DNA of 64,000 bases, taken from positions 186,001-250,000 of the forward strand of contig NZ_JASNJD010000005.1 of assembly GCF_030164425.1 (NCBI RefSeq), given 5' to 3'. The position numbers were made by a program, and so were the translations under genes. This document shows positions 39,055-64,000 of this stretch, in pieces. Under the pieces are notes generated by a model that saw only the letters and a list, made by a program, of their open reading frames with translations, was not told where the DNA came from and did not search any database. Numbering within the stretch: the stretch's first letter is position 1; every line of letters starts with the position of its first letter. This stretch comes from Pseudodonghicola flavimaris (lineage in GTDB: Bacteria > Pseudomonadota > Alphaproteobacteria > Rhodobacterales > Rhodobacteraceae).

Positions 39055-39070
39055 TTAAGGTTTTACTAAC
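39055..39070 (+). promoter_or_regulatory. Candidate CtrA-type site upstream of the DivL-like gene
   Basis: TTAA-GGTTTTA-CTAAC resembles the CtrA consensus TTAA-N7-TTAAC with one mismatch and lies 62 bases before the gene. A neighbouring TTAA-N8-TTAA (39043-39058) has one base too many. A GC hairpin CGCCCCC/GGGGGCG (39000-39020) between regB and this site may end regB transcription. Confidence 0.35.
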
Positions 39071-60718: not shown

Positions 60719-61548
60719 GCCAGCACCGCCTGGCGGGTGGCCTCGTCGACCTCAGGACGCTGACCGAACCAGCGTTCGAACCCGGGCACCGCCTGCCAGA
60801 TCAACATGCCCAGCCCGTCGACGGTGGTGGCGCCAGCCGCGTCAGCTACCTGAAGAAGGTGCGTTTTCAAAGGGTTATAAACCAGATCGGTGACCACGGT
60901 GCGACCATCGATCCCATCCAGTGGCACCCGCAGTTCGGGTTTCCCCAGCATCCCGAGCGAGGTGGTGTTCACCACCAAGCCGGCCTCTTCGACGATATTG
61001 CCCGCCTGTACCCAATCAACCACATGCAGACGCTGGCCGAAATCCTCGCGCAGCTGATCGGCGCGGGTGCGGGTACGGTTGGACAGCAGGATTTCAGGCA
61101 CGCCGGCATCGAGCAGGGCAGAGATCACTGCCCGTGCCGCGCCCCCGGCGCCGAGGATTGCCGCAGGCGCGGCCGTCGGATCCCAGCCGGGCGCGCCACG
61201 GCGGAGGTTCTCCATGAAGCCGTAGCCATCGGTGTTATCGGCGATGATCTTGCCCTCCGCCGCGAAGGTCAGGGTGTTTGCGGCGCCGATCAGGGTGGCG
61301 CGATCGGTGACCTGATCGGCGATGCTCAACACCTTTTCCTTGTGGGGAATGGTGATATTGCAGCCGACAAAGCCCATTTTCGGCATCATCCGCAGCACCG
61401 CCTCTAGATCGTCTGCGGCGACTTCCATCGGTATATAGTGCCCGGCGATCCCGTAGGTCTTCAGCCAGTGGCCATGCAGCAGCGGCGATTTCGAATGGGC
61501 GATGGGGCTGCCGATCACCCCAGCCAGCGGAATTCGGGTTGCAGTCAC
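60715..61548 (-). CDS. aroE: Shikimate dehydrogenase
   Basis: Reduces 3-dehydroshikimate with NADPH in aromatic amino-acid synthesis. The 277-residue enzyme has GVIGSPIAHSKSPLLHGHWL at the start, CNITIPHKEKVL with the catalytic Lys, and DNTDGYGFMENL. The NADP-binding GAGGAARAV and the final LVYNPLKTHLL complete it. The start is a GTG that overlaps the maf stop (GTGA). Confidence 0.96.
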   Translation of the reverse strand: MTATRIPLAGVIGSPIAHSKSPLLHGHWLKTYGIAGHYIPMEVAADDLEAVLRMMPKMGFVGCNITIPHKEKVLSIADQVTDRATLIGAANTLTFAAEGKIIADNTDGYGFMENLRRGAPGWDPTAAPAAILGAGGAARAVISALLDAGVPEILLSNRTRTRADQLREDFGQRLHVVDWVQAGNIVEEAGLVVNTTSLGMLGKPELRVPLDGIDGRTVVTDLVYNPLKTHLLQVADAAGATTVDGLGMLIWQAVPGFERWFGQRPEVDEATRQAVLA

Positions 61549-62144
61549 GAGTCGATCTCTCCCCTCAGCATCAGAAAGTTCAGAAGCTCCAGCAGCGGCA
61601 GGCCCAGGACATTGAAATAGTCGCCGTCGATCCGGGTGAACAGGCACACACCCTCTTCTTCGAGCTTGTAGCCGCCAACCGCCTGGCGAATGCTGTCCCA
61701 GTTGCGCGCCACGTAATCGGCGAGATAGCCGTCAGAGGCCTGGCGCATGCTCAGCCGCACCTGTCCGATATGACGCCATTCCGGCTGGCCGTCGCGGCAG
61801 ATCACCGCAGCCGACAGCAGCTTGTGCTGTTTGCCGCGCATCGCCTTCAGCTGATCCAGCGCCTGGTCCGGGCTCTCGGGTTTGGACAACAGACGACCGT
61901 CGAACTCCAGAACCTGATCGCAGCCCAGCACCAGCGCGCCGGGGTGCTTTTCGCTGACCTTGCGCGCCTTCAGTTCTGCCAATGTGTCGGCGATGTCGCG
62001 GGGCGGGGCGGTCTCGGCCAGAAGGGCGGCTTTCACCGTCTCCTCATCCACGCGGGCGGGCCGGATCTCGACCGCGACACCGGCATTTTGCAGCAGGCGG
62101 GCGCGAATTTGGGAGCTGGAGGCCAGGATCAGGGGGACAGACAT
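61545..62144 (-). CDS. maf: Maf-family nucleoside triphosphate pyrophosphatase
   Basis: Hydrolyses non-canonical or canonical nucleoside triphosphates to monophosphates. The 199-residue protein has LILASSSQIRARLLQNAGV at the start (P-loop-like), VDEETVKAAL, GCDQVLEFDGRLLSKPESPDQAL with the catalytic Asp, and GGYKLEEEGVCLFTRIDGDYFNVLGLPL (in parts). It is the first gene left of the putative origin. Its start codon lies within a DnaA-box-like sequence (62144-62152). Confidence 0.94.
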   Translation of the reverse strand: MSVPLILASSSQIRARLLQNAGVAVEIRPARVDEETVKAALLAETAPPRDIADTLAELKARKVSEKHPGALVLGCDQVLEFDGRLLSKPESPDQALDQLKAMRGKQHKLLSAAVICRDGQPEWRHIGQVRLSMRQASDGYLADYVARNWDSIRQAVGGYKLEEEGVCLFTRIDGDYFNVLGLPLLELLNFLMLRGEIDS

Positions 62145-62554
62145 GTGGAAAACCCGGTGAAAGAGCCGCGGACAGTACCGGAATGGTTCTAGGCAATCTG
62201 GCCGGGCACGCAAGCCCCGGGGGAAAACCCGGCAGTTTCGGCTGAGTCGCCCTGCAACAATCCCGGCTGGATAAGGATAACCGGGATCCGCGGGACGACT
62301 CGGGTTGTCCTGAATAATCCCGGAGTTATCCCCAGAGGTTAACGATTTTATGAAATCGTAAGTCTCTAGTTTAAAAGAACAAAGGTTATTTTTCCCGGGG
62401 ACCTCTGACAGGTGCACGATTTCTGTCCCCATGGTGGATAACTGGCCGGACAGATGAATAATCCACCGATGTCGCACCCCCTACTTAATCATCATCCTTT
62501 CTTCTTTTCTTTCTTATTATTAGGAAGACACCACCCGAGCGGCGCGAGGCAGCC
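62145..62554. other. Probable chromosomal replication origin (oriC region)
   Basis: A 410-bp non-coding region between maf-aroE-coaE-dnaQ-secB and hemJ-rho, the known place of oriC in alphaproteobacteria such as Caulobacter. DnaA-box-like 9-mers (consensus TTATCCACA) with one mismatch are TTTTCCACA (62144-62152, minus), TTATCCCCA (62326-62334, plus) and TTATCCACC (62433-62441, minus). Two-mismatch copies are at 62266-62274, 62272-62280, 62305-62313 and 62459-62467. Two AT-rich tracts (62339-62395 and 62485-62523) stand out from the GC-rich genome. The first is flanked by inverted CAGAGGT/ACCTCTG (62333-62339, 62401-62407) and holds the hairpin ACGATTT/AAATCGT (62342-62359). Confidence 0.8.
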
Positions 62555-63004
62555 ATGAGCGATTTCCTGATCATCCTGTATCCCTGGATTAAATCCCTGC
62601 ACGTCATGGCAGTGCTGTCCTGGATGGCTGGGATCTTCTATCTGCCGCGGCTTTACGTCTATCACGTGGAACAGGCTGAGAAGGTGAACGGGGCACCTGA
62701 AATCTTCTTCACCATGGAAGAGAAGCTCTATCGCTTCATCATGCATCCGGCGATGTATGTGACCTGGGTTTGCGGGCTGCTTCTTGTGATCACCCCGGGG
62801 ATCGTCGACTGGACCCGGGTCTGGCCCTGGACCAAAGGCATTTCCGTGATCGCGATGACGCTGTTTCACCTCTGGCTGGGACAGCAGGGCCGGAGGTTCC
62901 GGGCGGGTGAGAATACCCTGACCGGGCGCCGCTATCGGATGATGAACGAGGTTCCGACGCTGCTGATGGTGGTGATCGTGCTGTCGGTGATCGTGAAGTT
63001 CTGA
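62555..63004 (+). CDS. hemJ: Protoporphyrinogen IX oxidase HemJ
   Basis: Membrane enzyme that oxidises protoporphyrinogen IX to protoporphyrin IX, replacing HemG/HemY in most alphaproteobacteria. The 149-residue protein has four hydrophobic helices, with conserved His16 in WIKSLHVMAVLSWMAG and a second conserved region RFIMHPAMYVTWVCG. The C-terminus is NEVPTLLMVVIVLSVIVKF. It is the first gene right of the putative origin. A 6-bp stem GCGACT/AGTCGC (63050-63070) lies after it, without a U-tract. Confidence 0.93.
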   Translation: MSDFLIILYPWIKSLHVMAVLSWMAGIFYLPRLYVYHVEQAEKVNGAPEIFFTMEEKLYRFIMHPAMYVTWVCGLLLVITPGIVDWTRVWPWTKGISVIAMTLFHLWLGQQGRRFRAGENTLTGRRYRMMNEVPTLLMVVIVLSVIVKF

Positions 63005-63155
63005 TTGTCGCTTCGATGCGCCGATCAGATCCAGATTTGACTCAGCTCTGCGACTTCACTATGTAGTCGCGCAACTCGCCCGTCCGGGCGGCGTATTTTC
63101 CAGAAGTCGATGATCACAGCCTCCGCGTCCAGCGGGGTTCAAGGACCATAGTATC

Positions 63156-64000
63156 ATGACCACCGAATCCCTGAATCTCTCCGACCTCAAGGCCAAGAGC
63201 CCGAAGGATCTTCTGGCGATGGCCGAGGATCTGGAGATCGAAAACGCCTCGACCATGCGTAAGGGCGAGATGATGTTCCAGATCCTGCGCGAACTGGCCG
63301 ATGAAGGCTGGGAAATCGGCGGCGATGGCGTGCTGGAAGTGTTGCAGGACGGATTCGGCTTTCTGCGCTCGCCTGAGGCGAACTATCTGCCGGGCCCCGA
63401 TGACATCTATGTCAGCCCGGACATGATCCGGCAGTATTCGCTGCGCACCGGCGACACCGTCGAAGGGCAGATCAAGGCGCCGAACGAAAGCGAACGCTAT
63501 TTCGCGCTGACCAATGTCACCAAGATCAACTTCGAGCCGCCCGAAAAGGCCCGTCACAAGATTGCCTTCGACAACCTGACGCCGCTTTATCCCGACGAAC
63601 GGCTGAAGATGGAGATCGAGGATCCGACGGTCAAGGACCGTTCGGCCAGGGTGATCGACCTGGTCGCCCCGATCGGGAAAGGCCAGCGGTCGCTGATCGT
63701 GGCGCCGCCGCGGACCGGTAAGACGGTTCTGTTGCAGAACATCGCCCATTCGATCGAGAAAAATCACCCCGAGTGCTATCTGATCGTCCTGCTGATCGAT
63801 GAACGGCCCGAAGAGGTGACCGATATGCAGCGTTCGGTGAAGGGGGAGGTGGTGTCCTCGACCTTCGACGAACCGGCAACCCGCCACGTCGCTGTGTCGG
63901 AGATGGTGATCGAGAAAGCCAAGCGCTTGGTCGAGCATAAACGAGATGTTGTGATCCTTCTCGACTCGATCACCAGACTTGGTAGGGCGTTCAACACCGT
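63156..64000 (+). CDS. rho: Transcription termination factor Rho, 3' end cut off by the window
   Basis: RNA-dependent helicase that ends transcription. The visible first 281 residues include the N-terminal domain ([18 protein letters not shown]), the cold-shock-like RNA-binding domain ([16 protein letters not shown] near residue 63), Walker [13 protein letters not shown] near residue 185, and Walker [19 protein letters not shown] at the window edge. About 140 residues are missing. The 151-base leader upstream contains the small hairpin noted for hemJ. Confidence 0.97.

Follow-up and report, generated by a model that had tools for sequence, protein, structure and literature searches.

A candidate chromosomal origin between maf and hemJ of Pseudodonghicola flavimaris with a conserved triplet array next to a DnaA box

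Introduction

A close described counterpart of the element reported here is the basal unwinding system (BUS) at the oriC of Bacillus subtilis, in which DnaA reads the bases of short DnaA-trios. In B. subtilis DnaA, residue Asn187 touches the trio adenine, whereas Arg202 and Glu228 touch the guanine, and an exchange of the central A for T or G leads to slower strand separation and worse growth than an exchange for C (PMC10721633). According to the same source, these trio-reading residues are not universally conserved, and Pelliciari et al. (2023) consider it possible that a variety of sequences is recognized among DnaA homologues. The spacer lengths of published BUS peak at 10–13. In the BUS survey of Pelliciari et al. 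(2021; PMC8287927), no trios were reported for 15% of the searched origins, and deviant motifs without the middle adenine were suspected. A further triplet repeat is known from the oriC of Thermotoga maritima, where the so-called eTrio is part of the unwinding element and is essential for single-strand binding (PMC10316083). Within the Alphaproteobacteria, the Cori of Caulobacter crescentus is flanked by hemE and COG1806 (PMC1914354), and oriCs of Rhodobacteraceae have been predicted with Ori-Finder from skew and boxes (PMC6699656). Among the papers listed in literature searches, judged by their titles and the opening parts of their abstracts, a triplet array of the kind described below did not appear for Alphaproteobacteria.

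Here, we analyzed a stretch of 64,000 nucleotides from P. flavimaris (G000:C55:186001–250000, hereafter the window), which belongs to a genome of 5.31 Mb in 60 contigs. All positions refer to the window unless a contig is named. An initial annotation, made from the letters of this DNA, had proposed a small origin with weak DnaA boxes and two AT-rich tracts between maf and hemJ.

Results

Location and Neighborhood of the Candidate Origin

The candidate oriC is the intergenic gap at positions 62145–62554, to which no strand is assigned. It is bordered on the left by maf (61545–62144, minus strand, Pfam PF02545), with aroE, coaE, and dnaQ on the same side, and on the right by hemJ (UPF0093, 62555–63004, plus strand, Pfam PF03653), which is followed by rho (63156–63998, plus strand, Pfam PF07497 and PF07498), a gene that continues beyond the window end. 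The genes on both sides read outward, as had been described initially. The order maf–gap–hemJ–rho recurs within the Rhodobacteraceae and was found in 26 of the 30 loci examined, the window's own locus counted, and among these 26 syntenic loci the gap measures about 360–480 nt in 24 and about 1.2 kb in two.

The cumulative GC skew, calculated over the whole contig of 316,573 bp, reaches its minimum at position 61,980 (C55:247,980), which is 165 bp left of the gap. The initial annotation had suggested such an analysis of the full chromosome as a check on its placement of the origin, and on this one contig the minimum lies beside the gap rather than away from it. Two perfect parS sites (TGTTTCACGTGAAACA) are located 3.2 and 5.1 kb right of the gap at C55:251,747 and C55:253,655, corresponding to window positions 65747 and 67655 just past the window end; in a scan that allowed at most one mismatch, no further parS was detected on the 316-kb contig. 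On the same contig, 20 DnaA-box sites have no more than one mismatch. Their densest cluster is formed by the three sites of the gap within 298 bp, where the contig rate would predict about 0.03 such boxes per 414 bases. The region from 62478 to 62530 has an A+T content of 68%, as is looked for in an AT-rich unwinding element, whereas the 2-kb bins of the window have a G+C content of 58–71%. Since the skew minimum, the parS pair, and the kept gap with its neighbors agree with each other and are all independent of the boxes, the maf–hemJ gap is very likely the chromosomal oriC, and the assignment made initially from its position beside maf, hemJ, and rho is supported.

Sampled skew values from relatives gave a mixed picture. 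In the complete genome of the relative G266, the skew changes from −0.093 just before hemJ to +0.060 just after it (20-kb samples), with exceptions away from hemJ such as a value of +0.081 at 1.73 Mb in a mostly negative arm. In G035, a member of the Rhodobacteraceae with hemJ at 3.52 Mb, no skew switch at hemJ was seen in 20 samples. The sampled skew of contig G035:C1 flips its sign several times, which points to chromosomal rearrangement or to a faulty assembly.

An origin linked to dnaA was also considered and rejected, as dnaA is located 177 kb away on the same contig (C55:71,245). Two GANTC sites occur in the 410 bp of the gap at positions 62244 and 62297, where 0.35 would be expected from the window average; judged by these motifs, CcrM-type methylation could mark the origin. 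Far from the origin, near the contig start, an exact DnaA box is found 12 bp from another that has no more than one mismatch (C55:289–309).

The usual alphaproteobacterial origin neighbors PPSR and hemE are gone from the origin of this genome. PF03618 (PPSR/COG1806) has no match in G000 and hemE is found on a separate contig (C60), so an ancestral hemE–ori–PPSR arrangement was probably remodeled to hemJ–ori–maf in the Rhodobacteraceae.

DnaA Boxes and the Middle AT-Rich Tract

An exact TTATCCACA does not occur anywhere in the 64-kb window, which is in line with the initial annotation. Three boxes differ from it by one mismatch each, namely TTTTCCACA at 62144–62152 on the minus strand, TTATCCCCA at 62326–62334 on the plus strand, and the inverted box TTATCCACC at 62433–62441 on the minus strand. 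All three had been recognized before, including the overlap of the first with the maf start codon, and this box starts one base left of the start that had been given for the region. Four further boxes with two mismatches had been counted, where we find three: two overlapping weak box-like sites on the minus strand (62266 and 62272, together 62266–62280, two mismatches each) and the forward anchoring box TAATCCACC at 62459–62467 on the plus strand, which is part of the family profile of 103 loci presented below. Close to the maf start, 20 of the 26 syntenic loci, again with the window's own counted, have a minus-strand box that differs by no more than one mismatch. In the genus mate L003, an exact TTATCCACA occupies the place where the window has TTATCCCCA. 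The TTATCCACC box corresponds to a conserved block rich in G, which is located around −44 to −38 in the profile.

The middle AT-rich tract (62336–62394, no strand) contains a hairpin (62334–62367) and is accompanied by CAGAGGT/ACCTCTG repeat arms at 62333–62339 and 62401–62407; this arrangement had been described correctly, as had the presence of a second, T-rich tract against hemJ. A direct sequence comparison with L003 revealed that neither the CAGAGGT arms nor the hairpin are retained in this genus mate. Because of this loss, the middle tract is disfavored as the main unwinding element. The features highlighted initially, which are the weak boxes, the CAGAGGT repeats, and the hairpin tract, are the less conserved parts of the gap, and its conserved core is the hemJ-side tract, which had been missed as such.

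A Conserved Block at the hemJ End

The best-conserved part of the gap is its hemJ end, where a 13-nt spacer separates a forward DnaA box from a nearly G-free triplet array, to which a T-rich tract is joined. We compared 115 loci, comprising 113 Rhodobacteraceae (own locus included) and two from outside the family. In 103 of them the region upstream of hemJ conforms to a single ungapped profile, which is located 50–96 nt before hemJ and has 13 nt between box and array. The 12 loci that scored under 13, ten from the family and both non-family loci, were dropped from the 103-locus counts, and all 103 fitting loci belong to the family. In order, the profile is composed of inverted box-like sites, the forward box TAATCCACa, a degenerate second box, and a GC-rich end, and 3' of this end the top strand is nearly G-free for about 40 nt. 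The array has the consensus CTA CAA MAT CAT CAT and is followed by the T-rich tract.

In the window, the 13-nt spacer with its GC-rich end spans 62468–62480 (plus strand), the place at which many relatives carry the degenerate second box. The array CTA CTT AAT CAT CAT CCT follows at 62481–62498 (plus strand; complement 3'-GAT GAA TTA GTA GTA GGA-5'). Array and T-rich tract are covered by a G-free run of 48 nt at 62475–62522 (plus strand), which we propose as the unwinding element. On the contig, no other stretch free of G or free of C exceeds 28 nt.

Among the first 17 array positions, the best-kept are mostly C·G pairs at triplet starts. C is found at the triplet starts (positions 2, 5, 8, 11, 14, and 17) in 82, 83, 53, 99, 92, and 81% of the loci, respectively, and at four or more of these six positions in 97 of 103 loci. 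The proximal trio is 3'-GAT-5' (top strand CTA) in 63 of 103. In triplets 2–5, the triplet start is followed on the top strand by A in 74, 84, 94, and 83 of the 103 loci, respectively (72–91%). The periodicity was also analyzed in the longest G-free run of each locus, which was picked without regard to phase. The period-3 excess of C in this run amounts to z = 14.9 with 106 of 112 family loci, three of the 115 having been left out (the two non-family loci and a family locus whose retrieved sequence did not include maf) and six of the 112 having been dropped for short tracts. For PPSR-side regions of other alphaproteobacterial families the excess is z = 5.2 with 39 of 50 regions, the other 11 being dropped for the same reason. 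These 50 class regions were the 30 best-ranked plus 20 hand-chosen ones of 80 genomes with a PF03618 match.

The Array in Other Alphaproteobacteria

A sequence-only model of 92 positions was built from 46 family loci and searched in 387 genomes of the class. At an E value of 0.1 it matches in 214 of the 387 genomes, mostly weakly, and 173 genomes, among them the family genome G100, have no match at this threshold. Considering the best 25 model hits outside the family, hemE is located on the array side in 23 and maf on the opposite side in 19. The best listed hit of the model lies at most 900 nt upstream of a PF03618 gene in 19 of 27 genomes, these genomes having been paired by hand from the listed matches of the model and of PF03618. 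Because hemE flanks the array in 23 of the 25 hits outside the family, the array goes with the origin and not with hemJ. The second triplet base in other families is about evenly distributed, with 60 C, 59 A, and 54 T in 173 triplets.

In a pattern scan of named genomes, 54 among the 80 matches listed have the pattern at most 150 nt upstream of hemJ, and by title these loci are mostly from Ruegeria, Roseovarius, Tateyamaria, and relatives. The remaining 26 listed loci include two with maf and 24 without maf, hemJ, or rho, some of them from unrelated phyla. One locus, L183 from Acetobacter fabarum, matches the array pattern exactly and has no match to maf, hemJ, or rho in its 8-kb surroundings, so that its match may be due to chance or to an unrelated context.

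Published and Guanine-Anchored Reading of the Trios

The published BUS rule was coded from the text of the paper as at least three (.A.) trios, a box with at most two mismatches, and a spacer of at most 16. With this rule something is found in 97 of the 103 regions compared to 25 in shuffles. In 32 of the 97 regions, the best candidate is the box whose 3' end enters the maf start codon; the first maf codons are probably taken for trios because hydrophobic codons have T at their center. The best candidate is at the array in 21 regions. Runs according to this rule start in the first 12 array positions in 18 of 103 loci, are in phase with the proximal trio in two of 103, and start anywhere inside the array in 30 of 103. 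In the window, the best candidate is again the one at the maf start and no run within the limits of the rule starts in the array: from the box at 62459–62467 it is 13 nt to the CTA triplet, and the nearest run of at least three NAN, comprising five trios, begins at 17 nt. Applied to the whole 316-kb contig, the published rule yields 41 candidates. The rule can be misled, as by the maf start codon.

A second rule anchors the triplets on guanine, i.e., it asks for C at the triplet starts of the top strand and for a box with at most two mismatches within 16 nt. It was derived from the family loci that it scores, this window's included, and with this limit it recovers 80 of the 103 regions, all at the element, compared to 0.8 in shuffles. 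It has a single site in the 316-kb contig, anchored by the box at 62459–62467, where the published rule gives 41, and it has no match in 800 kb of other family DNA that served as a control. The fair figure comes from outside the family, where 15 of 50 regions are found compared to 0.33 in shuffles. When three box mismatches are allowed, 25 of 50 regions of other families are recovered compared to 2.0 in shuffles, at the cost of 18 matches in the control DNA and ten sites in this contig.

Phased with the proximal trio, triplets 2–5 mostly have T at the center of the strand that is equivalent to the one bound by B. subtilis DnaA, and in this window the published rule does not find the three or more 3'-NAN-5' trios of a BUS at the element. 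The register is ambiguous, since CAT repeats shifted by one base read ATC, which has the complement 3'-TAG-5' with a central adenine. It might therefore be that the origin is a canonical BUS in a shifted register, in which DnaA reads 3'-TAG-5' (top strand ATC) and starts either at the degenerate second box or across an extended spacer. Shifted by one, three canonical NAN trios are present at positions 12–20 in 58 of 103 loci, this window included, with the central adenines at positions 13, 16, and 19, and at least three NAN in some register occur in 51 of 103 cores compared to 10.6 in shuffled cores. This reading would also be in agreement with the array-starting runs of the published rule and with those regions in which its best candidate is at the array. 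Moreover, the three TAG repeats required in T. maritima are not directly next to the box (PMC10316083). However, in 20 of the 103 loci, near-pure CAA repeats among them, the array contains no such canonical NAN run at all, the window has no array-starting run under the published rule, and the best-kept bases are mostly those at the triplet starts of the guanine-anchored phase. On balance we consider the shifted canonical register rather unlikely, and the guanine-anchored code appears to be the better reading of the aligned arrays, a preference that is as yet unproven.

The Trio-Reading Residues of DnaA

When the DnaA of G000 was aligned to 8btg, Tyr, Lys, and Glu were found at the positions of Asn187, Arg202, and Glu228, respectively, so that the Asn187 of the BUS system is replaced by Tyr. 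The comparison was extended to 30 family loci and 70 class loci, the latter being the 30 best-ranked plus 40 hand-chosen loci (diverged ones included) from 115 genomes, with one of the 70 loci belonging to the family. At the Asn187 position, Tyr or Phe is present in 58 of the 70 class loci and in all 30 family loci, which together makes 88 of 100. In the remaining 12 class loci, the residue is H (three), N (two), R (two), or S, T, V, Q, or A (one each). Glu228 is retained in 69 of 70 class and all 30 family loci, and Lys replaces Arg202 in the same numbers (69/70 and 30/30). Elsewhere, E. coli has Gln at position 187, the aligned T. maritima chain has Asn, and the A. aeolicus chain has Gln. 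Of the two class genomes with Asn187, G360 has an array that starts with CTA CTA CTT, and that of G310 does not; within the class, the link between residue 187 and the array is accordingly a loose one. As a side observation, G014 and G099 each have 16 Bac_DnaA matches, of which one is a true DnaA and the others are weak, many with identical scores. We assume that these extra matches are probably transposon ATPases of the IstB kind.

A relaxed central base would be compatible with Tyr or Phe replacing the adenine-reading Asn187. Based on arrays and proteins taken together, we tentatively suggest that Alphaproteobacteria may use a deviant DnaA-trio code of the form 3'-GNW-5', in which the central adenine would be dispensable and DnaA has an aromatic residue for Asn. 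This is a possibility that we would put at somewhat under even chances. It would provide a concrete candidate for the suspected deviant trio in a large and well-sampled class, together with a matching substitution in the DnaA pocket.

Discussion

The location, anatomy, and conservation of the element are as observed above, and what follows is projected onto it from the Bacillus BUS. We regard it as likely that the locus is a roseobacter-type oriC in which weak boxes seed a DnaA filament on the guanine-anchored array and the T-rich tract is opened. DnaA would bind a few weak boxes, with one at the maf start, another in the middle, and two at the hemJ end, of which the first is inverted and the second forward. 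Starting from this forward box (62459), DnaA would then form a filament that crosses the 13-nt spacer and reaches a single strand of the array (62481–62498), and the adjoining T-rich tract up to 62522 would be opened for helicase loading. The array would most likely be read as 3'-G-N-[A/T]-5' triplets on the strand that runs 5'→3' toward the boxes, with the guanine contact kept and the central base relaxed.

Apart from the shifted register discussed above, it might be that the array is simply an easily melted tract, or one for helicase or primase loading, that is not base-read by DnaA. The 48-nt G-free run, its T-rich half, and the variable second base in other families would all suit such a function. 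However, neither the period-3 C nor the fixed spacing to the box would be needed for melting alone, which makes a mere melting or loading tract improbable.

It could also be that the strand read by DnaA, or by a different loader, is the top one, where CAW triplets offer a central adenine, with a polarity opposite to that of the boxes. At least three NAN on the top strand are found in 92 of 103 cores compared to 31.6 in shuffles, the top-strand A after the triplet start is frequent in triplets 2–5 of the family, and in B. subtilis DnaD binds the strand opposite the trios (PMC10201434). On the other hand, C, A, and T are about equally frequent at the second triplet position in other alphaproteobacterial families, and B. 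subtilis DnaA is described as binding the trio strand and not its complement. A switch of strands is therefore decidedly improbable in our view.

Finally, that the conserved block is a promoter or leader of hemJ instead of a part of the origin would suit its position shortly before hemJ in the 103 loci and a promoter-like match at 62435–62462, which is not notable against chance (one found, 0.3 expected), but this explanation was rejected as having hardly any probability left, because a similar block is found beside hemE in other families, with maf opposite in 19 of the best 25 hits, and an RNA of the Rfam kind was rejected likewise, with no Rfam match in 61900–62700.

We therefore return to the guanine-anchored array next to a weak box and compare it with the known systems. 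Regarding Caulobacter, with which the initial annotation had recommended a comparison, the setting is alike in that a maf–aroE–coaE–dnaQ cluster adjoins the gap, Cori being compared here by its flanks. Judged by synteny, the gap occupies the place of the hemE/PPSR/maf origin of Alphaproteobacteria, which is also that of Cori (PMC1914354). In contrast to Cori, the gap is flanked by maf and hemJ and not by hemE and COG1806/PPSR. Control of the Caulobacter kind by CtrA and IHF was rejected, as consensus sites are absent from the gap: the CtrA motif TTAA-N7-TTAA with at most one mismatch does not occur in it (one is located elsewhere in the window at 39055), and one form of the IHF consensus, WATCAANNNNTTR, has no match in 61,000–63,500. 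Of the suggested parallel, the maf-cluster setting thus holds, whereas the hemE and COG1806/PPSR flanks and the regulatory sites do not. A similar array is also present in those alphaproteobacterial families in which hemE/PPSR borders the gap.

Compared to the oriCs predicted by Ori-Finder for Rhodobacteraceae, the present description differs in that the accessible text of PMC6699656 describes no unwinding element or triplet array. With the eTrio of T. maritima the locus shares a triplet repeat within the unwinding element. It differs from it in that the bound strand of Thermotoga carries three TAG and its boxes resemble ACCTACCAC, whereas here the corresponding strand has ATG/TTG triplets and the boxes are TTATCCACA-like. 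The differences to the BUS of B. subtilis are that trios 2–5 mostly lack an in-phase central adenine, being 3'-GTW-5' within the Rhodobacteraceae and 3'-GNW-5' in the rest of the class, and that Asn187 of DnaA is Tyr in this genome. With the same BUS the locus shares the box, a spacer of roughly 13 bp with a GC-rich end, a proximal 3'-GAT-5', an array of period 3, and the AT-rich DNA that follows, and by this analogy the maf–hemJ origin may work like a BUS origin.
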